NCBI GenBank assembly: GCA_019246795.1
Contig: JAFAPY010000128.1
Span: 1-41,886, forward strand
DNA from: Streptosporangiaceae bacterium
GTDB taxonomy: Bacteria; Actinomycetota; Actinomycetes; Streptosporangiales; Streptosporangiaceae
Direction of reading: 5' to 3'
Length of the DNA: 41,886 nucleotides
Shown: positions 11,536 to 26,303 of the stretch, piece after piece
Layout of the letters: each line of letters starts with the position of its first letter
Numbering within the stretch: the first letter of the stretch is position 1
The notes under the pieces: model-generated
The model's input: only the letters and a program-made list of their open reading frames with translations
What the model was told of the DNA's origin: nothing
Database searches by the model: none
Translations under genes and position numbers: made by a program

Positions 11536-12216
11536 TCAGCGCTCCCCGGTTTCCGGCAGCGCCACGGCGCGCCGCCGCAGCCCGGCGAGGAACTCCGCCA
11601 CCGCGGCCCGGGCCTCGGCCCCGCCGTCGAACCCCTGCCAGCACATCCGCAGCTGGCCCACCAGCGCGTAGCACTCATCGATCGGGATCAGGAAGACCTC
11701 GTGTGTGTCGGTGCGGTTGACGAAGACGGCCTCGACGTCGGGCGCCATGGCCGCGAGCAGCGGGTGGGTGGCGGCGAGCCTGTCCCAGGCGGCCAGGTCC
11801 AGCTCGCACTCGGTCACGCCGCCCGGGCTCGGGTACCCGGCCACCACCTGGCCCAGCTCGGAGTTGACGAAGAAGAACGCCATCGCGACCGGGATCTGCA
11901 GCTCGTTCCACTCCGCGTCGGTCAGCGGGTGGCCCGGGTCGCGGCAGACCCGCTCGGGCACCGCGCGGTACTTACCGCCCGCCGCTCCCTCGTGGGTGAA
12001 CAGCAGATAGCACGCCCGGCAGGCGCACAGCAGCGACCGCTTGGTCATGTCGACCAGATGCCCGTGCCGCTCGTCGAGCACCCCCAGGCACATCTCGCAC
12101 TGTTCCGCGGCTGCGCTGGCGTCCTGCGGTGCCTCCGGCGCCGGGCCGGGCGCGGCGGCCAGCCCCGCACGCTGCGTCCCGCTGGCGAACCGGCGCAACG
12201 CGGCGACACCGGTCAC
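11536..12216 (-). CDS. Hydrogenase-operon cysteine-rich protein, DUF5947-like (226 aa)
   Basis: The GTG at 12216 overlaps the stop of the NifU-like gene by 4 bases, giving 226 residues. Five cysteines cluster near the N-terminus: C40-x2-C43, then C64-x-C66-x2-C69 in LLCACRACYLLF. This is a metal-binding pattern that could hold zinc or a rubredoxin-like iron. The rest includes WNELQIPVAMAFFFVNS and EVFLIPIDECYALVG. From memory this matches DUF5947, which travels with group 1h hydrogenases. It could be an electron carrier or an assembly factor; sequence alone does not decide. No signal peptide is visible, so it acts in the cytoplasm. Confidence 0.86.
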   Translation of the reverse strand: MTGVAALRRFASGTQRAGLAAAPGPAPEAPQDASAAAEQCEMCLGVLDERHGHLVDMTKRSLLCACRACYLLFTHEGAAGGKYRAVPERVCRDPGHPLTDAEWNELQIPVAMAFFFVNSELGQVVAGYPSPGGVTECELDLAAWDRLAATHPLLAAMAPDVEAVFVNRTDTHEVFLIPIDECYALVGQLRMCWQGFDGGAEARAAVAEFLAGLRRRAVALPETGER

Positions 12217-12755
12217 CTGGCACCTGCCGGGCGCCTGCCGATCTGCAGCAGCGGCAGCTCCGCCGGCGCAGCGACCACGTCGATGTCGACGTCTGCCGCC
12301 TCCGGCGCCGCCTGCCGCACCGCGTCGGCGAGCGCAGCCTGGACCGCGGCCGCTGACGAGCCGCACCCGTGGCCGCGGTGCAGGCGCAGCCGGACCACGT
12401 CGGCCTCGTCGATGCCCAGGAACTCGACCGTGCCCGCGTGCTGCCCGAGCCGGGGCGTGACCTGTTCGACGGCGCGTGCCACCCTGGTCGCGGCATCGAC
12501 CGGGTGCAGGTCGTGCACCAGCAGCAGGCTTTCCACCAGCGGGTCGGCGGCCAGGGCGGTGAGCAGCCGCTGTCCTGCCCCGGCGTCCTCGCCGACGATC
12601 CTGACGATCTCTGCGAGCCCGGCGCCGTAGAGCCGGACCAGGCAGCTCACCAGCTCTTCCGCGGTGGCAGCGACCTGCGGGCCGCCCCGGGCGCGCAGCT
12701 CCGCGATCAGCGCCTCGGCCCGCTCGCCCGCCGCCTGCGCAGCTACCGAGCTCAT
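12213..12755 (-). CDS. NifU-like C-terminal domain protein with a degenerate cysteine motif
   Basis: A 180-residue protein whose C-terminal half resembles the NifU/Nfu scaffold that hands over Fe-S clusters. The normal Nfu motif is a C-x2-C in a context like HGCGSC; here it reads HRGHGCGSSAAAVQ, so only the first cysteine remains. The N-terminal half is helical (ELVSCLVRLYGAGLAEIVRI). ATG 12755 overlaps the stop of the large-subunit gene (ATGA). With a single Cys it probably cannot hold a cluster as a standard Nfu dimer does, unless partner residues supply ligands. It may act in delivery of the clusters to the hydrogenase small subunit or purely as a structural partner. Confidence 0.85.
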   Translation of the reverse strand: MSSVAAQAAGERAEALIAELRARGGPQVAATAEELVSCLVRLYGAGLAEIVRIVGEDAGAGQRLLTALAADPLVESLLLVHDLHPVDAATRVARAVEQVTPRLGQHAGTVEFLGIDEADVVRLRLHRGHGCGSSAAAVQAALADAVRQAAPEAADVDIDVVAAPAELPLLQIGRRPAGAR

Positions 12756-14563
12756 ATCGCCAGCGTGACTCCGGTCGGCGAGTGCGCCGTCTTGACCACC
12801 CTGCCGCCGCCGAGGTACATGTGCACCCCGCAGGGCAGGCACGGGTCGAAGCTGCGCACCGCACGCATGATGTCGATGCCCTTGAAGCGCTCCGGCGGGT
12901 TCTCCTCGAAGATCGGCGTGTTCTGCACCGCGTCCTCGTACGGCCCGGGCGTCCCGTAGCTGTCCCGGACGCTGCCGTTCCACGGCGTGGGCGGGTACGG
13001 GTGGTAGTTGGCGATCTTGCCGTCCCTGATCACCATGTGATGCGACAGCACGCCGCGCACCGCCTCGGTGAAGCCGACGCTGAACGCGTCGTTGGGCACC
13101 GTGAACGGCTCCCACGTCCTGGTCCGCCCGGCGCGGATCTCGGCGAGCGCCTGCTCCACGAAGTGCAGCGCGCAGGCGGCGGAGTAGGCCTGGAAGTAGG
13201 TCCGGGCCCGGTCCCGCTCGATCGCGTTGGACAGCGGCTTGCCCTCTTTATCCGCTGGGATCTTCCACTCGAAGGTGACCTCCGGCCGGGACACGGTCCG
13301 CGGCAGGTTGATCTTCACGCTGTGCCCGGTGGCCTGCACGTAGCCGATGTCCACCAGGCCGGCCAGCGCCGTGGACCACAGCCGGGCGATCGGGCCGCCG
13401 CCGGTGTCCAGCGGCAGGTAGTCGGTCCCGTCGAACCAGCGCGGGGCCATGCACCAGCTGTACGCGCCGTCGAAGTCGCGCTTGGCCGGCTTGGGGATGG
13501 TGTGCTGGTTCCACGGGTGCCGCCGGTCCACCGGGTTGCCGAGCTCGTCGTGGGTGACGAACATCTCCTGGTCTTCCCAGTCCTCGTAGTAGGAGTGGCC
13601 GAGCAGGATCCTGATGCCCAGGTTGATGTCGACCAGGCTGGTGGTGACCAGGTTGCCGTCCACCACGACCCCGGGGGTGACGAACATCTTCCGGCCCCAG
13701 TCGGCCATCTCCCGGTAGGTGAAGTTGCAGGCCACGGGGTCGTTGAAGCTGCCCCAGCAGCCGAGCAGCACCCGCCGCCGCCCGACTTCCTCATAGCCGG
13801 GCAGCGCCTCGTAGAAGAAGTCGAACAGGTCGTCGTGCATCGGCACGACCCGCTTCATGAACTCCACGTAGCGCATCAGCCGGGTCAGGTAGTCGGTGAA
13901 CAGCTGGACCGTCGCCACCGTGCCGACGCCGCCGGGATACAACGTCGACGGGTGCACATGCCTGCCCTCCATCAGGCAGAACATCTCCCTGGTGGTCCTG
14001 CTGACCTGCAGCGCCTCCCGGTAGAACTCCCCTTCCAGCGGGTTCAGCGAGCGCATGATGTCGCCGATGGTGCGGTAGCCGTGGTCGGCGGCGTGCGGCG
14101 CCTCGGTGGCGTTGGCCCGCTCGAGCACGCCCGGGTTGGTCTCGGCCACCATCTTCTCGCAGAAGTCCACCCCGACCAGGTTCTCCTGGAAGATGTTGTG
14201 GTCGAACATGTACTCCGCGGCCTCACCCAGGTTGATGATCCACTCGCCGAGGGCCGGCGGCCGGACGCCGTAGGCCATGTTCTGGTTGTAGACCGAGCAG
14301 GTGGCGTGGTTGTCGCCGCAGATCCCGCAGATCCGGCTGGTGATGAAGTGCGCGTCGCGGGGATCCTTGCCCTTCATGAAGATGCTGTAGCCGCGGAAGA
14401 TCGACGAGGTGCTGTAGCACTCCGCGACCCGCTTGGCGTTGAAGTCGATCTTGGTGTAGATGCCGAGGCTGCCGACGATCCTGGTGATCGGGTCCCAGTT
14501 CATCTCGACCAGGTCGGTCTCGGTGCCGGACGGGGATGTGATCCTGGGTTCGGTGGTTGTCAT
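12752..14563 (-). CDS. hhyL: [NiFe]-hydrogenase large subunit, group 1h type
   Basis: The catalytic subunit that splits H2 at a Ni-Fe(CN)2CO centre. Nickel ligands are in the L1 motif RICGICGDNHATC (C79, C82) and the L2 motif DPCLPCGVH (C575, C578). The TSRICGICGDNHATC form of L1 is characteristic of the actinobacterial high-affinity group (1h, formerly 5). Twenty-two residues follow His581, ending TGVTLAI; they are the expected removable peptide for the endopeptidase encoded downstream. At 603 residues it has normal length. It starts 6 bases after the stop of the small subunit, and its own stop overlaps the NifU-like start. In known relatives these enzymes oxidise atmospheric H2 and feed electrons to the respiratory chain during starvation. 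Confidence 0.96.
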   Translation of the reverse strand: MTTTEPRITSPSGTETDLVEMNWDPITRIVGSLGIYTKIDFNAKRVAECYSTSSIFRGYSIFMKGKDPRDAHFITSRICGICGDNHATCSVYNQNMAYGVRPPALGEWIINLGEAAEYMFDHNIFQENLVGVDFCEKMVAETNPGVLERANATEAPHAADHGYRTIGDIMRSLNPLEGEFYREALQVSRTTREMFCLMEGRHVHPSTLYPGGVGTVATVQLFTDYLTRLMRYVEFMKRVVPMHDDLFDFFYEALPGYEEVGRRRVLLGCWGSFNDPVACNFTYREMADWGRKMFVTPGVVVDGNLVTTSLVDINLGIRILLGHSYYEDWEDQEMFVTHDELGNPVDRRHPWNQHTIPKPAKRDFDGAYSWCMAPRWFDGTDYLPLDTGGGPIARLWSTALAGLVDIGYVQATGHSVKINLPRTVSRPEVTFEWKIPADKEGKPLSNAIERDRARTYFQAYSAACALHFVEQALAEIRAGRTRTWEPFTVPNDAFSVGFTEAVRGVLSHHMVIRDGKIANYHPYPPTPWNGSVRDSYGTPGPYEDAVQNTPIFEENPPERFKGIDIMRAVRSFDPCLPCGVHMYLGGGRVVKTAHSPTGVTLAI

Positions 14564-14569
14564 CGCGTC

Positions 14570-15613
14570 TCACCACGTCTTCTGGTAGCCGGTGCGGAGT
14601 TCGGTGCCCTTGACCCGCCATGTCGGTTCCTTGTCGGCGGTGCGCTGGGTGAAGCCGCGCAGGGTGCGGATCACCGTGCCGTACATGCCGCTGGCCGCCG
14701 TCGAAACCCGGGCCCCGGGCGGCTCGTCCATGAACGGCATGAACTTGTCGGGGAACCCGGGCATGGTGCAGGCGATGCAGATGCCGCCCACGTTCGGGCA
14801 ACCGCCGACGCCGTTGATCCAGCCGCGCTTGGGCACGTTGCACTTGACCACCGGACCCCAGCAGCCCAGCTTGACCAGGCACTTCGCTGAGCCGTACTCG
14901 GCGGCGAAGTCGCCCTCCTCGTAGTAGCCGGCCCGGTCGCAGCCCTGGTGCACGGTGGCCTCGAACAGCCACCGCGGCCGCAGCGCCTCATCAAGCGGGA
15001 TCATCGGCGCCTGGCCGGCCACCTGGTACAGCAGGTACAGGATGGTCTCGGACAGGTTGTCCGGGTGGATGGGGCAGCCGGGCACGCACACGATCGGCAG
15101 CCCGGCCTTCGACGTCCAGTCCCAGCCGAGGTAGTCGGGGACCCCCATGGCCCCGGTCGGGTTGCCGGCCATCGCGTGGATGCCGCCGTAGGTGGCGCAC
15201 GTGCCGACCGCCAGGATGGCGGTCGCCTTGGGGGCCAGCCGGTCCAGCCACTCGCTGGTCGTCACCGGCTGCCCGGTCTCGGGGTCGCGGCCGAACCCGC
15301 ACCAGTAGCCCTCGGGCTTGATCGCCTCGTTCGGGATCGACCCCTCCACGACCAAGACGAACGGGTCGAGTTCCCCGCGGTCGGCCCTGCGCCACCATTC
15401 GATGAAGTTGTCCGCGCCCTGCTCGGGGCCGCACTCGAAGTCGATCAGCGGCCAGTGCACCGCCACCTTGGGCAGGCCGGGCAGGGCGCCGAGCGCGATC
15501 TCCTCGATGCTCGGCTGGGTGGCCGCGGTCAGCGCGACCGAGTCCCCGTCGCAGGACAGGCCTCCGTTCATCCACAGGATGTGCAGGACCTGCTCGTCCA
15601 CGGCCTGCGTCAT
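14570..15613 (-). CDS. hhyS: [NiFe]-hydrogenase small subunit, group 1h type
   Basis: The electron-transfer subunit carrying three Fe-S clusters. I chose ATG 15613 (347 residues) because GAGGGG lies 9 bases upstream; a GTG at 15622 overlaps that site. The proximal cluster motif reads LSCDGDS, with C21 and Asp24 where most hydrogenases have C-x2-C. The structure of the Ralstonia actinobacterial-type enzyme is known to use three Cys and one Asp for this cluster, so the change identifies the subtype. Other ligands lie in VGTCATYGG, VPGCPIHPD, HQGCDRAG, LGCWGP and GGCPNVGGICIAC. There is no Tat signal, so the enzyme is not exported by itself. First gene of the operon. Confidence 0.96.
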   Translation of the reverse strand: MTQAVDEQVLHILWMNGGLSCDGDSVALTAATQPSIEEIALGALPGLPKVAVHWPLIDFECGPEQGADNFIEWWRRADRGELDPFVLVVEGSIPNEAIKPEGYWCGFGRDPETGQPVTTSEWLDRLAPKATAILAVGTCATYGGIHAMAGNPTGAMGVPDYLGWDWTSKAGLPIVCVPGCPIHPDNLSETILYLLYQVAGQAPMIPLDEALRPRWLFEATVHQGCDRAGYYEEGDFAAEYGSAKCLVKLGCWGPVVKCNVPKRGWINGVGGCPNVGGICIACTMPGFPDKFMPFMDEPPGARVSTAASGMYGTVIRTLRGFTQRTADKEPTWRVKGTELRTGYQKTW

Positions 15614-16076
15614 GACGGCCACCCCCTCGCTGAGGCTGCCCGCGGCTGCAGGCGCCAGATACGGTTACGCGCGGGCACGGGGCACCGGCGAAGCGGAGTG
15701 TCCGCCGGAGCCGGGAAAGTACGGGTGCAGGGAGCGGCCCGGGCGCCACCAGGTCTGGATCCCGGCTGCGCGGTACCGCTGAGTCGCGCGAGCCCATTGC
15801 CGGCGCGTCCCAGTGGCCTGTCGGCGGCATGCGCCGCCCTGCGGACCGCTCATATGCTCACAAACGCCGACGCACGGCAACGGCGCCATCGCCGGTGACA
15901 GCAGAGTATTCCCGTCGGGGTCATATCTCAAGACAGAACAGTCGCCGGCTCGGACACATCTGTCTTCCGGTGGCGGCTCGTCAGCGGTGCCCGTGCCACG
16001 TACCCTCGTTGCCAGGGACCCGGTGGCCAGGGGGGGCGCCAGGTCGCTTCCTCGTGCGCGGTGACCCGGAGGGCGG
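15614..16076. promoter_or_regulatory. Divergent control region between hhyS and its putative regulator
   Basis: A 463-base region with no convincing gene. It separates the hydrogenase operon from the divergent HTH gene and must carry both promoters. A 12-bp dyad GACA-CATC-TGTC lies at 15953-15964, next to a related AGACAGAACAGTC around 15931. The small-subunit ribosome-binding site GAGGGG is at 15628-15623. I see no clear -10/-35 pair by eye. Confidence 0.5.
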
Positions 16077-16756: not shown

Positions 16757-17317
16757 GTGGCAGCAACGACAGGTGACTTCCGGCTCGGGCCCGCCGCCGG
16801 GCGTGTCGTCGTCAAGACCGGCCGTACCGGCATGGCCGCCAGGGCCGGCCACGACCTGACCCTGGAGATCACCCGCTGGTCGGCGCGTATCAGCATCCCG
16901 GGCGAAGACGCCGGGGGGGCGACGGCCGCCGCCGTCACCGCCGAACTCGATCTCGGCTCGCTGGAGGTCCGCGAGGGCAGCGGAGGCGTCAAGCCACTCA
17001 CCGATTCCGACCGGCGCGACATCAAGAAGACCATGAGCGGGATCATCCGCGATGCCACGGCCAGCTTCGCCTCCACCCGGATCGTCCGATCAGACGGCGG
17101 CGGTACGGTCGAGGGCACGGTGACGCTCAACGGGAAGACCGAGCCGGTGCGGCTGCAGGTGACCGAGGCGGCTCCCGGCCGGTACCAGGGGAGCGGCCCG
17201 GTGCAGCAGTCGGCTTTCGGCATCAAGCCGTACACCGGCTTCTTCGGCGCGCTCAAGCTGCGCGACGAGGTGACGATCGAGTTCGACGTGGACCTCGCCC
17301 GGGCGGAGCCCGGGTGA
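16757..17317 (+). CDS. YceI-family protein
   Basis: A lipocalin-like beta-barrel protein of 186 residues that in characterised relatives binds isoprenoid-type lipids. Family signs are the N-terminal FRLGPAAGRVVVKTGRTGMA, the AGHDLTLEI strand, the turn SDRRDIKKTMSGII and the C-terminal FGIKPYTGFFGALKLRDEV. No signal peptide is evident, so this member is probably cytoplasmic, as in many actinobacteria. GTG 16757 lies 48 bases after the regulator's stop. It is followed 35 bases later by a lipoprotein gene. The ligand is unknown; a polyprenyl compound would fit the nearby menaquinone gene but is speculation. Confidence 0.85.
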   Translation: MAATTGDFRLGPAAGRVVVKTGRTGMAARAGHDLTLEITRWSARISIPGEDAGGATAAAVTAELDLGSLEVREGSGGVKPLTDSDRRDIKKTMSGIIRDATASFASTRIVRSDGGGTVEGTVTLNGKTEPVRLQVTEAAPGRYQGSGPVQQSAFGIKPYTGFFGALKLRDEVTIEFDVDLARAEPG

Positions 17318-17352: not shown

Positions 17353-19017
17353 ATGAGCAGACAAGCCAGCACGATCGGCACCCGCCGACCCGCGGTGGCG
17401 GGCGCGGCGCTGCTGGTCGCGGCAGGCCTGATCGCCGGCTGCTCGGGCAGCAGTAGCAGCTCAAGCACCCTGGCGTGCCCGTCCAAGCGCGGCGCGGCGG
17501 TCACCGGGACCGCCCCGGCCGCAACGGGCCGGCCCGCGGCGGGCTGGACGCAGCCGGACGCCGGCCTGGCGAGCACCCGCGACGTGGCCAGCGCCATCAC
17601 CAGCAGGAACGCTCCCAAGCTCGGGGTGGCGTGGACGGTGCCGCTGACGATGTCCACGGCCCACACCGACGGGGCCTACGCGACCACGCCGGTGATCGTG
17701 AACGGAGTGGTGTACGTCCAGGACCTGGACTCCGACGTGTTCGCGATCAGCCTGGCCACCGGCAAGGTCTTGTGGACCCACGACTACAGCTCGCCCAACG
17801 GCGGGCCGGACGGCGTCAACGTGGCCGGCGGGGTCGTGTACGCGGCCACCGCCAGGGCCGCGGTCGCCCTGGACGCCGCCACCGGAGCGCAGGTGTGGAC
17901 CCGGACGCTGATCGGCAACGATCACGAGGGCATCGCCATGGCGCCCGGCTACAACAACGGCACCGTGTACGTGTCCACCGTGCCGGCCAACGTGACGGGT
18001 CAGTACCTGCCCGGCGGCGAGGGGATCTTGTGGGCGCTGAACGCCAAGACCGGCGTGCCGGAGTGGTCCTGGAATCAGGTGGGCAACCTGTGGGGCAACC
18101 CGGGCGTCAACTCCGGCGGCGGCCTGTGGTACACGCCGTCGTTCGACGCCCAGGGCAACATCTACCTCGGCATCGCCAATCCAGGCCCGCTGTTCGGCAC
18201 CAAGACCTACCCATGGGGGAGCAGCCGCCCCGGCCCGGACCTGTACACCGACTCGGTGGTCAAGCTCAGCCCGGCCGGAAAGCTGCTGTGGTACTACCAG
18301 CTCACCCCGCACGACCTGTACGACTGGGACCTGCAGAACCCGCCGGTGCTCACCACCGCGAACGGGCGGCCGGTGGTGATCGACGGCGGCAAGGCCGGCA
18401 TCCTCATCGAACTGGACGCGCAGACCGGCACGCTGATCTGGAAGCGCCCGGTGGGCGGGCACGACGGGCATGAGAACGACGGGCTGCTCACCGAGCATGC
18501 CACGCCCGCCTCGCGGGGCTTGCTGCCAACCGAGTACTGCCTCGAGCCGAGCATTTACGGCGGCATCGAGACCCAGCTGGCCAGCAACGGCTCCACCACC
18601 TTCGCCGCCGTCAACGACCTCGCACTGCCGGCGACCCCGGCCAACTACACCGGGTCGGTGACCGCCGTCATCGAGGCCGTCGAGAGCGCCGTCGGCGAGA
18701 TGGTCGCGGTCAACCAGGACACCGGCGCCGTCGAGTGGGATACCCCGCTCCCGTCCTCGCCGTACGGCGCCGCGACGGTGACCAACGACGTTGTGCTTAC
18801 CACCACCTTCCACGGCGACCTGTACGCGCTGGACGCGGCCACCGGCGCCATCGTGTTCAAGACGCCGATGTCCGCCGGGAGCAACGCGCCGGTCGCCGTC
18901 GACGGCGATTACGTCATCGCCGGCGCCGGCGCTGCGCAGTCCAGCACGCAGCAGAACCTGATCATCGCCTACAAGCTCGGGGCGACAGGCAAGCTCCCCG
19001 ACACTGTGGGCTCATGA
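17353..19017 (+). CDS. PQQ-repeat beta-propeller lipoprotein (quinoprotein dehydrogenase-like)
   Basis: A 554-residue exported lipoprotein. The signal peptide ends in the lipobox LIAGC (Cys30), followed by a serine-rich spacer. The body is a beta-propeller made of repeats of the type VFAISLATGKVLWTHDY, ALDAATGAQVWTRTL, ALDAATGAIVFKTPM. The segment TPHDLYDWDLQNPPVL matches the active-site region of quinoprotein alcohol dehydrogenases. I do not see the adjacent-cysteine disulfide typical of methanol and ethanol dehydrogenases, so dependence on PQQ is uncertain. It would act on the outer face of the cytoplasmic membrane. No PQQ biosynthesis gene is present in the window. Confidence 0.8.
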   Translation: MSRQASTIGTRRPAVAGAALLVAAGLIAGCSGSSSSSSTLACPSKRGAAVTGTAPAATGRPAAGWTQPDAGLASTRDVASAITSRNAPKLGVAWTVPLTMSTAHTDGAYATTPVIVNGVVYVQDLDSDVFAISLATGKVLWTHDYSSPNGGPDGVNVAGGVVYAATARAAVALDAATGAQVWTRTLIGNDHEGIAMAPGYNNGTVYVSTVPANVTGQYLPGGEGILWALNAKTGVPEWSWNQVGNLWGNPGVNSGGGLWYTPSFDAQGNIYLGIANPGPLFGTKTYPWGSSRPGPDLYTDSVVKLSPAGKLLWYYQLTPHDLYDWDLQNPPVLTTANGRPVVIDGGKAGILIELDAQTGTLIWKRPVGGHDGHENDGLLTEHATPASRGLLPTEYCLEPSIYGGIETQLASNGSTTFAAVNDLALPATPANYTGSVTAVIEAVESAVGEMVAVNQDTGAVEWDTPLPSSPYGAATVTNDVVLTTTFHGDLYALDAATGAIVFKTPMSAGSNAPVAVDGDYVIAGAGAAQSSTQQNLIIAYKLGATGKLPDTVGS

Positions 19018-20075: not shown

Positions 20076-20588
20076 ATGGCAGGCCCGCCTGCCGGCGAGC
20101 CGCGGGAACGCACATACGAGACTCCTGTCGCCCGCCGGGTCGGATCCTGGCTTGTGTGGTGGGTCCTGATGATGTCGTTGTGGGTGATGCTCGACGACTC
20201 CATCGACACCGACGAACTGCTCGCCGGGGCCGGGGTGGCCGCCTTGGCGGCGCTCTTCGCGGAGATGGTCAGTTACCAGGCCGCGACGCGCTTCCGGATG
20301 CGGATCGAGTGGCTCGTCCCGGCGTTGCGTCTTCCCGGCGAGGTGGTCCGCGACACGATGGTCGTCTACCGCGCCCTGTGGCGGCGGTTGGCGCGCGGCG
20401 AGCAGCCGCCCAGCGCGTTCGTTGAGCTGCCGGTTCCGTTCGGGGACGACAGCCCCGAAGGCGTCACCCGCCGGGCCCTTCTTGTGGGCGGCACCAGCGT
20501 CGCGCCGAACACCTTCGTGCTCGGCATCGACCAGGACGCAGACGTCATGGTGGTGCACCGGCTGGTGGCCAAGGAGGGCAGGACATGA
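20076..20588 (+). CDS. Mrp-type antiporter subunit E (MbhA-like)
   Basis: First gene of a seven-gene cation/proton antiporter operon. The 170-residue membrane protein has two hydrophobic segments (VGSWLVWWVLMMSLWVML and LLAGAGVAALAALFAEMV) and the subunit E hallmarks LRLPGEVVRDTMVVYRALW and SVAPNTFVLGID. The next gene begins 1 base after its stop. In standard bacterial Mrp operons subunit A comes first; here E leads, as in archaeal Mbh operons. Confidence 0.88.
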   Translation: MAGPPAGEPRERTYETPVARRVGSWLVWWVLMMSLWVMLDDSIDTDELLAGAGVAALAALFAEMVSYQAATRFRMRIEWLVPALRLPGEVVRDTMVVYRALWRRLARGEQPPSAFVELPVPFGDDSPEGVTRRALLVGGTSVAPNTFVLGIDQDADVMVVHRLVAKEGRT

Positions 20589-20589
20589 C

Positions 20590-20844
20590 ATGGTGATGGC
20601 GTTTACCGCGGCGGCGATCGCGATGCTGGTCGCGATGATCCCCGCCGCGATCGTGTTGTGCCGGGGAGAACTGGCGGGCAGCGTGGTCGCCTACGAGTTC
20701 ATCACCTCGGTCATCGTGATGGTGCTGGCGCTGCTGGCGCAGGCTTTCAAGCGTCCCAGCGAGTTCGAGTTCCCGGTGCTGATGGCGGTGCTGCTGTACG
20801 GCAGCAGCCTGGTCTTCATCCGGGCCCTGGAGCGCTGGCTGTGA
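20590..20844 (+). CDS. Mrp-type antiporter subunit F (MbhB-like)
   Basis: A small, 84-residue membrane protein with three hydrophobic helices (MAFTAAAIAMLVAMIPAAIV, FITSVIVMVLALLAQAF, FPVLMAVLLYGSSLVFI), the usual subunit F size and topology. ATG 20590 is used because AAGGAGG stands 12 bases upstream; an ATG two codons later is possible. Its stop overlaps the next start (GTGA). Confidence 0.88.
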   Translation: MVMAFTAAAIAMLVAMIPAAIVLCRGELAGSVVAYEFITSVIVMVLALLAQAFKRPSEFEFPVLMAVLLYGSSLVFIRALERWL

Positions 20845-21179
20845 TCATCAAAGACGTTTTCTCCGACATCCTGCTCGGCCTGGCCGTGCTGATCGTGATC
20901 GCCTCGGCGGTCGGCGTGCTGGTGATGCGGGACGCCTACCAGAAGCTGCACTTCGTCACCCCGGCCGCCCTGATCGGCCCGGCACTGGTGGCGCTGGCGC
21001 TCATGGTGCAGCACGGTGTGTACGAGATGACCGGCGAGTCCTTCCTGGCTCTGTTCTTCATGATCGTCGCCGGGCCGTTCATCTCCCACGCGACCATCCG
21101 CGCCATCCGGGTCAGGGAAAAGGGCGACTGGCGCCTGCAGCGCGGCGGCCAGGCCCCGGCCGAGGAGAAGGAACAATGA
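20841..21179 (+). CDS. Mrp-type antiporter subunit G (MbhC-like)
   Basis: A 112-residue membrane protein starting at GTG 20841 inside the preceding stop. Subunit G features are ILLGLAVLIVIASAVGVLVM, then RDAYQKLHFVTPAALIGPA, and a third helix SFLALFFMIVAGPFISHATI. The charged C-terminal tail (GGQAPAEEKEQ) is cytoplasmic. It overlaps the next gene by ATGA. Confidence 0.9.
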   Translation: MIIKDVFSDILLGLAVLIVIASAVGVLVMRDAYQKLHFVTPAALIGPALVALALMVQHGVYEMTGESFLALFFMIVAGPFISHATIRAIRVREKGDWRLQRGGQAPAEEKEQ

Positions 21180-21460
21180 TCGTCGCCGTCAGCACCCCGT
21201 TCACGGTGCCCATCGGCTTCATGGACGCCCTGCAGGTCACGGTGCTGATCCTGATAGCGGCGGGCGCCACCGCGGTCGTGCTGACCCGGCGGCACGTCCA
21301 CCAGGTGCTGGCGCTCAGCGTCTACGGCGTGCTGCTGGCCGTGCTGTTCCTGGTGTTCCAGGCACCCGACGTCGCCCTGTCCGCGCTCACGGTCGGCGCG
21401 GTGGCCCTGCCGATCATCTTGCTGCTCACCCTGGCCAAGACCGGGAAGCGGGAAGAATGA
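21176..21460 (+). CDS. DUF4040 / MbhD-like antiporter subunit
   Basis: A 94-residue protein with three membrane helices. It corresponds to part of the C-terminal region of the large MrpA subunit, which in archaeal Mbh complexes is a separate protein, MbhD. Signs are ATAVVLTRRHVHQVLALSVY and VFQAPDVALSALTVGAVALP; the second carries the conserved acidic residue in a helix (APDVALS) thought to belong to the proton path. It overlaps its neighbours on both sides by 4 bases. Confidence 0.87.
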   Translation: MIVAVSTPFTVPIGFMDALQVTVLILIAAGATAVVLTRRHVHQVLALSVYGVLLAVLFLVFQAPDVALSALTVGAVALPIILLLTLAKTGKREE

Positions 21461-22215
21461 CGCCCGGCCAGCGCCGCGCGATGTTCCTCATCGGGGGGGC
21501 CGGCCTCGTCGCCTTCGTCGTCTGGGGCCTGCTCGGGCTGCCGGGCTTCGGCCACTACCCGGGGCCGTACGGGTTCATCATCAACCGCTTCGCGTTGCGG
21601 CAGACTCACGCCACCGGCACCGTGTCCGCGGTCAACTTCGACTACCGGGGCTTCGACACCGTGGGCGAGGAGTTCATCTTGTTCGCCGCTGCGGCCGGGG
21701 TCGCCACCGTGCTCCGCACGCTGCGCGGCGAGCGCGAGCGGTCCCCGGCCGACCAGGCCGCCGACCGCGACGCGCCGCCCACCAGCGGCGCCGTCCGGAT
21801 GGCCGCCCTGATGTTCACCGGCCCGCTGGTGGTCATGGGCTGGTGGCTGACCTCCCACGCGCAGACCAACCCGTCCGGCGGCTTCCAGGGCGGGGTGGTC
21901 CTCGCCACCGCGTTCATCATGGTCTACCTGGCGGGCGAGTTCCTGGTCTTCGAGCGGTTCAGCCCCGTCGACGTGACCGACGCGGTGGAGGCGGTCGGCG
22001 CCGGCGGCTTCGCCGCCGTCGGCGTCGCCGCGCTGGGGTTCGGCCTGGCCTACCTGACCAACTTCCTGCCCAAGGGACAGGTCTACGGGTCGGTGAGCTC
22101 GTCCGGGACCATCGCGCTGATCAGCTTCTTCGTCGGCATGGAGGTGGCCGCCGCGTTCATCCTGATCGTCGTCGAGCTGCTCGACCAGACCCTGCTCATC
22201 CGGGGCGGCGGGTGA
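21457..22215 (+). CDS. Antiporter subunit: MbhE-like and MnhB/MbhF domains fused
   Basis: A 252-residue membrane protein made of two parts. Residues 1-90 look like MbhE, the extreme C-terminus of MrpA (TVSAVNFDYRGFDTVGEEFI). Residues 110-250 are the MnhB domain (GPLVVMGWWLTSHAQTNPSG, GGFQGGVVLATAFIMVYLAG). In the Mbh order these are consecutive genes, so this is a fusion of neighbours. It overlaps the DUF4040 gene (ATGA) and runs into the subunit C gene (TGATG). Confidence 0.87.
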   Translation: MTPGQRRAMFLIGGAGLVAFVVWGLLGLPGFGHYPGPYGFIINRFALRQTHATGTVSAVNFDYRGFDTVGEEFILFAAAAGVATVLRTLRGERERSPADQAADRDAPPTSGAVRMAALMFTGPLVVMGWWLTSHAQTNPSGGFQGGVVLATAFIMVYLAGEFLVFERFSPVDVTDAVEAVGAGGFAAVGVAALGFGLAYLTNFLPKGQVYGSVSSSGTIALISFFVGMEVAAAFILIVVELLDQTLLIRGGG

Positions 22216-22559
22216 TGACGTACTTCCCGTTCATCGTGGTGGCGTGGATCCTGGCCGTAGGCCTGTACGGCATCGTCACCAGCCGTCACCTGGTCCACCA
22301 GATCATCTGCCTGATCGTGGTCCAGTCCTCGACCTACGTGCTGCTGCTCGGCGTCGGCTACGTGACCGGCGCGGTGGCGCCCTACTACTGGGACATCACC
22401 GTGCACACCCCGGCGGTCGACCCGGTGGTCCAGGCACTGGCGCTCACCGACGTCGTCGTCGAGGCCGCCGTGACCGCGCTGCTGTGTTCCGTCGCGATCC
22501 AGGCCCACAAGCGGTTCGGCACCCTGGACCCGCAGGAACTGGCCACGATGAGAGGATAA
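22215..22559 (+). CDS. Mrp-type antiporter subunit C (NuoK/MbhG-like)
   Basis: A 114-residue, three-helix protein homologous to NuoK of complex I. Features are YGIVTSRHLVHQIICLIVVQ and the conserved acidic pair region in DPVVQALALTDVVVEAAVTA. Start taken as ATG 22215, overlapping the preceding stop by one base; a GTG three bases earlier is an alternative. The tail FGTLDPQELATMRG is cytoplasmic. Confidence 0.9.
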   Translation: MTYFPFIVVAWILAVGLYGIVTSRHLVHQIICLIVVQSSTYVLLLGVGYVTGAVAPYYWDITVHTPAVDPVVQALALTDVVVEAAVTALLCSVAIQAHKRFGTLDPQELATMRG

Positions 22560-22565
22560 CCGGCC

Positions 22566-24401
22566 TTGGACCAGTTGCTTGCCCTCGTCGTGGCCGTCCC
22601 GCTGCTCGCGGCCGCGGCGATCACCGGGGCCGGGCCGCTGCTCGGCCGCCGGCGCCGGCTGCTCGACGCGGTGGCGATCGCCGTCGCCGCAGCCGTAGCG
22701 GTGATGCTGGTGGTGATCATGGTGCGCACCGCCGACGGGGACGAGGTCTACTGGTTCGCCGGATTCCGCCCCTTCCACGGCGCCGCCATCGGCATCGACT
22801 TCGAGGCCGGCTCGCTGTCCGCCGGCCTGGCCGCCCTGGCCGCCGTCCTGGTCACGGCGGCCATGACGTTCTCCTGGCGGTACTTCGAGCAGGTGGCCAC
22901 CCACTACCACACGCTGATGCTGACCTTCCTCGCGGGCATGGTGGGCTTCTGCCTGACCGGGGACATCTTCGACCTGTTCGTGTGGTTCGAGCTGATGGGC
23001 GTGTCGGCCTACGCGCTGACCGCCTACCGGCCGGAGGAGGGCGGCCCCATCCAGGGCGCGCTCAACTTCGCCATCACCAACAGCGTGGGCGCCTACCTGT
23101 CGCTGTCCGGCATCGCCTTGATCTACGGCCGCACCGGGGCGCTCAACATGGCACAGATCGGCGTCTACATCGACCGCCACCCGCCGGACCGGCTGGTCGT
23201 GGTGGCGTTCGTGCTGATCATCTCCGGGCTGCTGATCAAGAGCGCGATCGTGCCGTTCCACTTCTGGCTCGCCGACGCGCACGCGGTCGCGCCTACGCCG
23301 GTCTGCGTGCTGTTCTCCGGCGTGATGGTGGAACTCGGCCTGTACGGGATCGCCCGGGTCTACTGGTCGATGTTCGGCCAGGCGCTGGGGCACCGGGCCG
23401 CGATCTCGCACACCTTCGTCGCGCTCGGCGTGCTCACCGCCGTAGCCGGGGCGCTGTTCTGCTTCCGCGAGCGGCACATCAAGCGGCTGCTGGCGTTCTC
23501 CACCATCAGCCACGCCGGCATGTTCCTGACCGGCATCGGGTTGCTCACCCCGCTCGGCCTGGCCGGCGCCGCCGTCTACGTCATCGGCCACGGCCTGGTC
23601 AAGGCCGCCCTGTTCCTGTGCACCGGCATCGTCTTGCACCGGCTCGGCTCGGTCAACGAGACCTGGCTGCACGGACGGGGCCGCCACCTGCGGGTCACCG
23701 GCGTGGTGTTCACGCTGGCCGGCCTGGGCCTGGCCGACCTGCCGCCGTTCGCCACCTTCCTCGGAAAGGGCTACGTCGACGCCAGCTCCTGGGCGCACGG
23801 GCTGCCGTGGGTGCTGCCGGTGTTCATCGCCTGCACGATCCTGGCCGGCGGCGCCGTGCTCCGCGTCGCGGGCGGTGTGTTCTACGGCCTCGGCGACGCG
23901 CCCAGCGAGGACCCGGAGATGGCCGAAATGGCCTCAGAGGAGACCACTGAGACGGTGTCAGGCAGGGATCGCACCCCGCTCACCATGATCATCCCGCCCG
24001 CTGTCCTGGTCGCCGCCGCCATCGCCTTCGGGCTCATCACGCGGCTCGGCCAGGTGGCACAGGCGGCGGCCATCCGGTTCCAGGACCAGGCCGGCTACAA
24101 CGCCACCGTGCTCGCGGGAGCGCACATCCTTCACCCGGTGGCGGCCGCCGCCGCGGAACCCACCGGCATCACCGTGTCCGACGTGGCCGCCGGCACCGGC
24201 TCCGCCGTCGGCGCGATCGCGCTGGCCCTGGCGGCGCTGTACTGGCGCCGCCTGCCGGTGCTGCGCCGGGGCTACGAGCCCGGCACGGGGCTGACCGCCG
24301 CCATCCAGCGTTTCCAAAGCGGCGTGGTCAACGACTACGTGGCCTGGATCGTCCTCGGCCTGGCCTGCGTGGGCGGCGCGCTGGCCTTCGCCATCACCTG
24401 A
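22566..24401 (+). CDS. Mrp-type antiporter subunit D (ND5/NuoN-like, MbhH-like)
   Basis: The large ion-translocating subunit, 611 residues with about 14 helices. Conserved antiporter residues are visible: Glu in DLFVWFELMGVSAYALTAY, Lys in LLIKSAIVPFHFWLADAHAV and Lys in VIGHGLVKAALFLCTGI. It is the only ND5-like gene of this operon; the full-length MrpA is missing and is replaced by the two small MbhD/E-like units upstream. The start is TTG 22566, six bases after the subunit C stop. A 60-residue cytoplasmic loop rich in E, T and S (about 445-475) precedes the last helices. Which ion is moved (Na+ or H+) is not deducible. Confidence 0.9.
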   Translation: MDQLLALVVAVPLLAAAAITGAGPLLGRRRRLLDAVAIAVAAAVAVMLVVIMVRTADGDEVYWFAGFRPFHGAAIGIDFEAGSLSAGLAALAAVLVTAAMTFSWRYFEQVATHYHTLMLTFLAGMVGFCLTGDIFDLFVWFELMGVSAYALTAYRPEEGGPIQGALNFAITNSVGAYLSLSGIALIYGRTGALNMAQIGVYIDRHPPDRLVVVAFVLIISGLLIKSAIVPFHFWLADAHAVAPTPVCVLFSGVMVELGLYGIARVYWSMFGQALGHRAAISHTFVALGVLTAVAGALFCFRERHIKRLLAFSTISHAGMFLTGIGLLTPLGLAGAAVYVIGHGLVKAALFLCTGIVLHRLGSVNETWLHGRGRHLRVTGVVFTLAGLGLADLPPFATFLGKGYVDASSWAHGLPWVLPVFIACTILAGGAVLRVAGGVFYGLGDAPSEDPEMAEMASEETTETVSGRDRTPLTMIIPPAVLVAAAIAFGLITRLGQVAQAAAIRFQDQAGYNATVLAGAHILHPVAAAAAEPTGITVSDVAAGTGSAVGAIALALAALYWRRLPVLRRGYEPGTGLTAAIQRFQSGVVNDYVAWIVLGLACVGGALAFAIT

Positions 24402-24515: not shown

Positions 24516-26303
24516 CTATCCGCTGCTGTCGCTGCCGCCTGGCAGCCGGGCCGCGCATTCCAGCAGCAGCGCGTGCACGAAGGCCTGCGGGAAGTTGCCG
24601 CGGAGCTGGCGCTGGGCGACGTCGTATTCCTCGGACAGCAGGCCGGGCGGGCCGCATGCGGCCCGGTTGCGCTCGAAGTAGCGGACTGCCGTCAGCGCGT
24701 TGCCCTGCTGGTGCTCGGCCAGCGCCATGATGAACCCGCAGAGCAGGAACGCGCCTTCGGCGTCGCCGAGCGGGCGCCGGTCGTGGCGGAACCGGTAGAC
24801 GTATTCCTCCTCGGCCAGGTGGTCCCGCACCGCCCGCACGGTGGCCACGGTCCGGGGGTCGCCGCCGGGCAGGGCGCCGCGGACCGGCGGCAGCAGCAGG
24901 GCCGCGTCGGGCCTGGGGTCGTCGGGGCAGCGCTGCCAGTAACCGTCGGCATGGGTGGCTGTCTTGGCGGTCTCGGCGAGGATGGCATCGGCGAGGGTGG
25001 CGGCCTCGCCGAGCCCGTTTCCGGCCGGCGGCAGCGCGGCGACCGCGCGCAGCCCGGCCACGCAGGCCAGCCGCGAATGGGTCCAGCACCGGTTGTCCAG
25101 TTCCCAGATGCCGGCGTCGGGTTCGGTCCAGCGCTTGGCGACGGCGTCGGTGGCGGTGCGGATCGCCTGCCAGCCGTCGGTGCCGAGCCGGTCGGCCCGG
25201 GCGGCGCTGGCCAGCAGCTGCAGCGCCTCGCCGAGCGCGTCAAGCTGGAACTGCTGGGTCACCCAGTTGCCGGTCTTGTCGGTGCCGCCCGGGTAGCCGG
25301 CCAAGTTCAGCGACCGCTCTGCGGGGACCGGCCCGCCGTCGACGGTGTAGGCGGGCTTGAGGTGCGGGCCGTCGTCGAGCAGCCGGGCGGTGACGAACGC
25401 CGTCGCGGCATCGAGCAGGTCGGGGGCGCCGGCGGCGGCCGCGGCGATCCCGGCGTAGGCCTGGTCACGGATCCAGGCATACCTGTAGTCGTAGTTGCGG
25501 CTGACATCGGCCCGTTCCGGCAGGCTCATCGTCGCCGCCGCGGCCATGCCGCCGCCCGCGCTGGTCAGCCCGCGCAGCACCGCCCAGGCATGCTGGGCGT
25601 CGCGCGGGGCGATGGTGTCCTCCAGCGACGGCCGGGCCCGTGCCCAGGCGGCCTCGGTGGCCCGCCAGGTCCCGCCCGGGTCCGGCGGGTCGGCGCCAAG
25701 ATCACCCTCGCCGATCTCCAGGACCAGGTCGTGCCGCTGACCGGCGGGCACGGTCAGGTCGAGCACCAGCAGCTCGCCCTGGGCGTGTGCCGCCTGCCGC
25801 GGGCGGGCCCGGCTGCCGCCCTGCCAGCGCCAGCGCAGCGGCCCGCTGTGACCGGACCAGATCCCGTTGTCCCTGGCCAGGCGCTGGCTGCCATGCCGGC
25901 CGAACCCGGCTCGCGGGTCCAAGATGACCCGCATCCGGGCATCGCCCCGCACCGCGTGGACCTGCCGCAGCAGCACCAGGCGGCCGGGATCGCCGGGAAA
26001 CGCGAGCGCCTCCCGGCACTCGATCACCGTGTCGGTAGTCACCCACCGGTTGCGCCAGATCAAGCTGCCCGGCTCGTAGTACCCGCCCCACACGTGCCTC
26101 GGGTCGGCCGGGGTGACCGCGTACGCCCCGTCGCCGCCGATCAGCGCAGAAAACACCGCGTCGGAGTCCCACCGGGGCGCGCACATCCAGGTGAGCTCAC
26201 CGTGCGGCCCGATCAGGCCGCCCCGCTCCCCGTCCGCGACCAGCGCGTACTCGCGGAGCACGTGCGGGAAGAAGCTCACCGCGTCAGTACCGTTGCCTGC
26301 CAC
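24516..26303 (-). CDS. GH15 glycoside hydrolase (glucoamylase/trehalase family)
   Basis: A 595-residue inverting glycosidase of the (alpha/alpha)6-barrel type. The catalytic general acid is Glu401 in DAGIWELDNR and the base is in GLLSEEYDV (E558/E559). N-terminal sandwich domain: FPHVLREYALVADGERGG and WMCAPRWDSDAVF. The GTG at 26303 is chosen over an ATG at 26384 because GAGGAGG lies exactly 8 bases before it. No signal peptide, so the enzyme is cytoplasmic. In mycobacteria, close relatives hydrolyse trehalose; here trehalase or glucoamylase activity are both open. It is divergent from the YihY gene. Confidence 0.9.
   Translation of the reverse strand: MAGNGTDAVSFFPHVLREYALVADGERGGLIGPHGELTWMCAPRWDSDAVFSALIGGDGAYAVTPADPRHVWGGYYEPGSLIWRNRWVTTDTVIECREALAFPGDPGRLVLLRQVHAVRGDARMRVILDPRAGFGRHGSQRLARDNGIWSGHSGPLRWRWQGGSRARPRQAAHAQGELLVLDLTVPAGQRHDLVLEIGEGDLGADPPDPGGTWRATEAAWARARPSLEDTIAPRDAQHAWAVLRGLTSAGGGMAAAATMSLPERADVSRNYDYRYAWIRDQAYAGIAAAAAGAPDLLDAATAFVTARLLDDGPHLKPAYTVDGGPVPAERSLNLAGYPGGTDKTGNWVTQQFQLDALGEALQLLASAARADRLGTDGWQAIRTATDAVAKRWTEPDAGIWELDNRCWTHSRLACVAGLRAVAALPPAGNGLGEAATLADAILAETAKTATHADGYWQRCPDDPRPDAALLLPPVRGALPGGDPRTVATVRAVRDHLAEEEYVYRFRHDRRPLGDAEGAFLLCGFIMALAEHQQGNALTAVRYFERNRAACGPPGLLSEEYDVAQRQLRGNFPQAFVHALLLECAARLPGGSDSSG

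Follow-up and report, generated by a model that had tools for sequence, protein, structure and literature searches.

An MrpA-less, single-D Mrp-type operon in a Streptosporangiaceae genome and its bacterial relatives with altered proton- and cation-path residues

We analysed a 41,886-nt stretch of DNA (the window) that makes up positions 1 to 41,886 of contig JAFAPY010000128.1 from a Streptosporangiaceae bacterium (GCA_019246795.1). A seven-gene antiporter operon lies at 20076-24401 of the window, with all genes on the plus strand in the order E-F-G-MbhD-(MbhE+MnhB)-C-D. Comparison with known sequences indicates, with a probability of about 0.7, that the operon encodes a stand-alone, MrpA-less Mrp of the Group 3 type, that is, a monovalent cation/H+ antiporter of seven subunits in which D is the one proton-channel subunit and the other six make up a cation module. 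An earlier reading of this DNA, the original prediction, had regarded the architecture as unusual. The order is real, and what that reading missed is that its class is already established as Group 3 Mrp (PMC8415708) and occurs in haloarchaea too. The single-D bacterial branch to which the operon belongs is apparently undescribed; no description of it was found in the open-licence literature, which is weak evidence of absence. The unusual part, which had gone unnoticed, is a set of altered proton and cation residues.

Gene content of the operon and of the assembly

Neighbouring genes of the operon either share 1-4 nt or leave gaps of 1-6 nt, and the seven genes therefore form one operon. Pfam families were assigned to all seven (MNHE, MrpF_PhaF, PhaG_MnhG_YufB, MbhD, MnhB, Oxidored_q2 and Proton_antipo_M), each above its curated cut-off and each at the place expected from the predicted order, which is that of archaeal Mbh, the membrane-bound hydrogenase. 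The predicted MbhE+MnhB fusion was also correct: its MbhE half (PF20501) scored 23.6 bits, under the 27-bit cut-off, and was matched by the solved MbhE chain 6cfw_E as well, and MbsE of Pyrococcus furiosus is the same fusion of MbhE and MbhF (PMC8415708). The genes are as follows (aa, amino acids; values after the PF accessions are E-values).

20076..20588, plus strand: MrpE/MbhA homologue, 170 aa (PF01899, 1.6e-8)
20590..20844, plus strand: MrpF/MbhB homologue, 84 aa (PF04066, above cut-off; best PDB match 6cfw_B, weak, E = 0.028)
20841..21179, plus strand: MrpG/MbhC homologue, 112 aa, GTG start (PF03334, 3.4e-12)
21176..21460, plus strand: MbhD/DUF4040 homologue, 94 aa, counterpart of part of the MrpA C-terminus (PF13244, 1e-15)
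21457..22215, plus strand: MbhE+MnhB (MbhF) fusion, 252 aa (PF04039, 1.1e-14; PF20501, 5.3e-5; best PDB match 6u8y_E, MbsE)
22215..22559, plus strand: MrpC/MbhG/NuoK homologue, 114 aa (PF00420, 3.2e-17; best PDB match 6u8y_G)
22566..24401, plus strand: antiporter subunit resembling MrpD and MbhH, 611 aa, TTG start, extended by two helices at its C-terminus (PF00361, 8.6e-53)

The terminator that had been proposed at the end of the operon was not recovered. No intrinsic terminator was found 3' of D in a consensus scan, and the segment 24400-24515 folds like its shuffles (z = -0.11); the convergent gene downstream of D has its end at 24516.

We searched the genome for MrpA and for redox partners. 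The assembly is a metagenome-assembled genome (MAG) of 4.28 Mb in 424 contigs and is 92% complete. Searches of this assembly with the MbhD, MnhB and Proton_antipo_M domains did not find MrpA, as the original prediction had stated. There was one MbhD domain, the operon's own, one MnhB, and four Proton_antipo_M proteins, namely D of the operon and the NuoL, NuoM and NuoN of a Nuo cluster on contig C118; a full MrpA elsewhere in the assembly was rejected on these counts. The only NuoH sits inside the same Nuo cluster, which leaves no candidate for a partner of the Mbh or Ech type; a redox module of the Mbh, Ech or FHL type was likewise not found in the assembly. The gene content, the single NuoH and the lack of a conserved neighbour (see below) support the predicted stand-alone antiporter without redox genes.

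A bacterial branch with one D subunit

Relatives of the operon were sought with the MbhE+MnhB fusion as a marker, and their gene order was then read by profile searches. The same single-D operon was found at about 60 loci in at least seven phyla, and the carriers belong to Actinomycetota, Acidobacteriota, Planctomycetota, Myxococcota, Acetobacteraceae and other Alphaproteobacteria, Eremiobacterota and Chloroflexota. Every locus long enough to judge had the order E-F-G-MbhD-EB-C-D with one D. The operon was carried by 29 of the 250 genomes in the window's order, by 13/297 in its phylum and by 2/199 in the phylum of an Acidobacteriales genome. We surveyed the flanks of the relatives' loci for a conserved redox module beside the operon, a check that the original prediction had called for: no flanking gene recurs between lineages, and no homologue of the window's hydrogenase lies nearby. 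A full-length mrpA does not always accompany the operon, as a full-length MrpA frame (929-1116 aa) was present elsewhere in 16 of 42 operon-bearing genomes and found in none of the other 26, some of these genomes being incomplete. The complete 16-Mb chromosome of the myxococcotal carrier Minicystis rosea has the operon and no full-length MrpA frame.

By sequence, the nearest solved chain to D was MbhH (6cfw_H, E = 3e-49), followed by MbsH and then MrpD, with MrpA weaker. An AlphaFold2 model of D had a predicted local distance difference test (pLDDT) score of 90 and about 16 predicted membrane helices; the fold of this predicted model was closest to MrpD (TMt 0.89-0.92 for the best three chains), with MbhH at 0.87. 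In a phylogenetic tree, the D proteins of single-D operons formed one clade (support 100/100), which stands by itself and not inside standard bacterial MrpD; of the two findings that the original prediction had named as refuting it, a constant companion mrpA and a D among standard MrpD, neither was obtained. The neighbours of the clade were bacterial MrpD (100/100) and a group of MbhH, MbsH and the first D (D1) of three-D operons (85/83), and a modestly supported split (82/90) sets these three apart from MrpA/NuoL and NuoM/N. D as a subunit of the MrpA/NuoL type was considered and rejected: a full-length profile aligned end to end with both, yet the tree places D with MrpD and MbhH. The "ND5-like" label given to D earlier is thus better replaced by MrpD/MbhH-like. 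When the C-terminal extension of D was searched alone, neither MrpA nor NuoL matched well (best NuoL, E = 1.5), and from these comparisons the extension looks specific to the single-D branch.

Altered residues in the proton and cation paths

Antiporter-like subunits carry a proton chain GluTMH5-LysTMH7-LysTMH8-LysTMH12 (TMH, transmembrane helix; Steiner and Sazanov, PMC7419157). Residues were read in a first set of up to 46 readable relatives and in 13 loci fetched afterwards as an out-of-sample check, all 13 of which carry the single-D operon. GluTMH5 was kept in 43/43 of the first set and in 12/12 readable later loci (E142 in the window), and LysTMH7 in 42/43, with one Arg, and again in 12/12 (K225). 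At the position of LysTMH8, occupied by Lys in all the MrpD, MbhH and MbsH sequences used for comparison, Lys was present in 0/56 branch members (0/13 later loci). The window has E256 here, and the first set has Glu in 26, Asp in 6, Gln in 3, and Gly, Pro, Ser and Ala in 2 each. LysTMH12 was Lys in 10/39 of the first relatives and in 11/13 later loci, one further later locus having Arg; the window has K401. Across the two sets of loci, the loss of LysTMH8 is robust, and that of LysTMH12 is lineage-dependent and weaker in the later loci.

The cation path of Mrp has been described as P114e/H131e/H32g - D35f - E706a - H37c/H40c - T75c/E796a/D792a (PMC7419157; 6Z16). Both ends of this path were conserved: P114e and H131e were each kept in 41/41 (P144 and H161 in the window's MrpE), H32g in 43/43 (H37 in MrpG), T75c in 45/45 (T78 in subunit C), and D792a and E796a each in 46/46 of the first set and 13/13 later loci (D67 and E71 in the fusion). 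The middle was changed. D35f is replaced by E36 in the window and by Glu, Gln or a hydrophobic residue across the branch. The E706a-type acid is G74 in the window, and the MbhD E69 position is A70 there and Glu in 24, Gln in 18 and Ala in 3 members of the branch. H37c is replaced in all members by Ser, Ala or Thr (S38 in the window). The H40c position is Tyr in 46/46 of the first set and Tyr in 9, Trp in 3 and His in 1 of the later loci (Y41 in the window). A new Asp stands beside T75c in subunit C (D79 in the window) in 45/45 of the first set and 12/13 later loci, 57/58 overall. E72 of the fusion, present in 46/46 of the first set and in 7/13 later loci, was withdrawn as a family hallmark. 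The loss of H37c and the gain of D79 are therefore robust, and E72 is lineage-dependent.

Canonical MrpA-G complexes (6Z16, 7QRU, 7D3U) share with the window the protein families, the fold of D, and the residues GluTMH5, LysTMH7, D792a, E796a, T75c, P114e, H131e and H32g. Unlike them, the window operon has no MrpA N-terminal channel, a different gene order, Glu for LysTMH8, Ser/Tyr for H37c/H40c, Glu for D35f and no E706a; canonical A-C-D-E-F-G operons were found among the loci collected (L086-L088). Actinomycetes also have three-D operons (L082, L084, L085, L089-L091) with the order E-F-G-MbhD/E/B-C-D1-D2-D3. They resemble the window operon in the order E-F-G-MbhD(E)-B-C-D and in having neither a full MrpA nor redox genes, but they encode three antiporter-like subunits, their D1 falls outside the window clade, and the bacterial ones compared keep LysTMH8 and LysTMH12. 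Subunit C of the bacterial three-D operons also lacks the histidines. Haloarchaeal plasmid operons (L101, L103) have the order E-F-G-D'-B-C-D-D-D, carry neither a full MrpA nor redox genes and are annotated as antiporters. Actinobacterial D1, D2 and D3 each group with their haloarchaeal counterparts (100/99 or better), which suggests one old three-D system common to the two domains.

There is no settled account of how Mrp, Mbh and complex I couple protons to ions or electrons; models lean on the cation site of subunit C and on a chain of Glu-Lys-Lys-Lys that each antiporter-like subunit contains. The single-D branch keeps the first two residues of the chain and both ends of the cation path, and changes the middle, with one antiporter-like subunit and no partner. 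In a stand-alone Group 3-type antiporter of this kind, a proton or cation gradient itself, and no redox enzyme, would supply the drive, as inferred for the stand-alone Mrp of P. furiosus. Protons would pass through D via the conserved GluTMH5-LysTMH7 pair, with the Glu at TMH8 possibly acting as a relay in place of the lysine. The cation module, consisting of E, F, G, MbhD, the MbhE+B fusion and C beside D, would take up the cation at the MrpE/MrpG site (P144 and H161 of E, H37 of G) and release it to the outside via D67/E71 of the fusion and T78/D79 of C. The role of such a complex would likely be cytoplasmic pH and cation homeostasis. With LysTMH8 exchanged, mostly for an acid, and the histidines of C gone, the branch probably transfers protons and selects its ion in another way than known Mrp does. 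We tentatively propose, as a possibility we rate below even odds, that the branch is an undescribed and widespread bacterial stand-alone Mrp in which the one antiporter subunit functions although LysTMH8 is gone, LysTMH12 is often lost and the known cation-binding histidines are missing. Its proton wire would be a different one, with an acid at TMH8, and its cation site would have shifted to D79 of C, joined in many members by E72 of the fusion. If so, parts of a supposedly universal Mrp/complex I mechanism would be dispensable. Should the branch turn out to exchange ions all the same, it would offer a naturally occurring series of mutants and a minimal system in which the indispensable parts of the mechanism could be identified.

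Several observations weigh against an antiporter of the Group 3 type. None of the 56 readable members has LysTMH8, H37c and the E706a-type acid are either lacking or variable, D35f is not conserved, and the absences from the genome are not absolute in a 92%-complete MAG. A complex altered at LysTMH8, H37c, E706a and D35f might not move Na+ or H+ as Mrp does. The loss of LysTMH8 and H37c, together with the Tyr that mostly stands for H40c and the nearly invariant D79, would fit a derived complex that has given up Mrp-type cation/H+ antiport and serves as a channel, uniporter, proton-leak or pH-sensing complex, or handles another substrate. We consider this unlikely, though it is the most serious of the alternatives. 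The eight residues shared with canonical Mrp are conserved at the proton and cation sites, and therefore selection persists at the proton end and at the cation end; a Glu at TMH8 can carry protons itself; and the bacterial three-D operons lack the C histidines likewise, while their haloarchaeal counterparts are annotated as antiporters.

Known relatives, redox partners and ancestry

Group 3 comprises MrpA-less Mrp operons, and a stand-alone example is mrpEFGBB'CD (PF1147-53) of P. furiosus; its deletion makes the strain more sensitive to acidification, and coupling to Na+ has been inferred for it (PMC8415708). In Nitrospira, a Group 3 operon that includes additional D-like genes has been described (PMC7784846). 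Compared by gene order and description, the P. furiosus system and the window operon are both stand-alone, without MrpA and without an energy-input module, and both have E-F-G followed by B-type pieces, C and a single D. They differ in the fusion: MbhD and MbhE are fused and MbhF is separate in P. furiosus, whereas in the window MbhD is separate and MbhE and MbhF are fused, as in MBS. Archaeal Mbh and Mbs (6CFW, 6U8Y) share the order A-H and the MbsE-type fusion with the window operon and are the source of the PDB chains that best match D, C, F and the fusion by sequence. In contrast to them, the window operon has no redox subunits, no NuoH-like subunit and no MbhI gene (the NuoH-like MbhM and the hydrogenase subunits MbhJKLN are neither in nor near it), LysTMH8 is replaced, C is without D37g/H41g, and E69 of MbhD is Ala.

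This closeness to Mbh and Mbs in gene order and sequence, and a [NiFe] hydrogenase pair (12752-15622) about 4.5 kb upstream of the operon, would fit a membrane arm that docks with an unlinked redox module, either that hydrogenase or complex I, to form an Mbh-like enzyme. The features of the hydrogenase region are:

11536-12864: DUF5947 protein, overlapping, just downstream of the hydrogenase genes
12752-14563, minus strand: [NiFe] hydrogenase large subunit gene
14570-15622, minus strand: [NiFe] hydrogenase small subunit gene

We regard docking as quite improbable, and the idea of a membrane arm waiting for a partner, raised in the original prediction, is not supported. Enzymes of the Mbh/Ech type need a NuoH-like subunit of their own, and the genome's single NuoH belongs to Nuo. 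The hydrogenase pair is on the opposite strand from the operon with four genes between, and its homologues lie near none of the single-D operons of relatives; a hydrogenase-antiporter link was rejected on these grounds and on the single NuoH. No neighbour is conserved across phyla, and LysTMH12, which is on the face of D for MrpA-N or the Mbh redox module, is often lost in the first set. A living relic of a stand-alone antiporter ancestral to Mbh-like complexes, as had also been suggested, is very improbable: the Mbh gene order and the position of D as a third lineage beside MrpD and MbhH would suit it, but the tree is unrooted, approximately unbiased (AU) tests reject neither a sister relation to the MrpD side nor one to the MbhH side (p = 0.31 and 0.28), the distribution in bacteria is patchy, and D has derived features (loss of LysTMH8, the C-terminal extension). 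An ancestral position of the D clade is itself neither shown nor excluded by the unrooted tree and the AU tests.

Further observations concern the carrier genomes and the surroundings of the operon. In one genus of the same family, several genomes have as their second copy a divergent paralogue of the single-D operon (L068-L072), with Asp at the LysTMH8 position and no Lys at TMH12; these genomes often also contain a further single-D operon together with a canonical Mrp operon, so that up to three Mrp loci coexist. Several operon-bearing genomes have one or two additional NuoH-containing clusters (L094-L100), each with antiporter-like subunits of its own, and the D proteins of these clusters fall outside the window clade in the tree. 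In the window, a gene for a PQQ-type beta-propeller protein with a lipoprotein-like start lies at 17353-19017 on the plus strand and is preceded by a YceI-like gene at 16757-17317.

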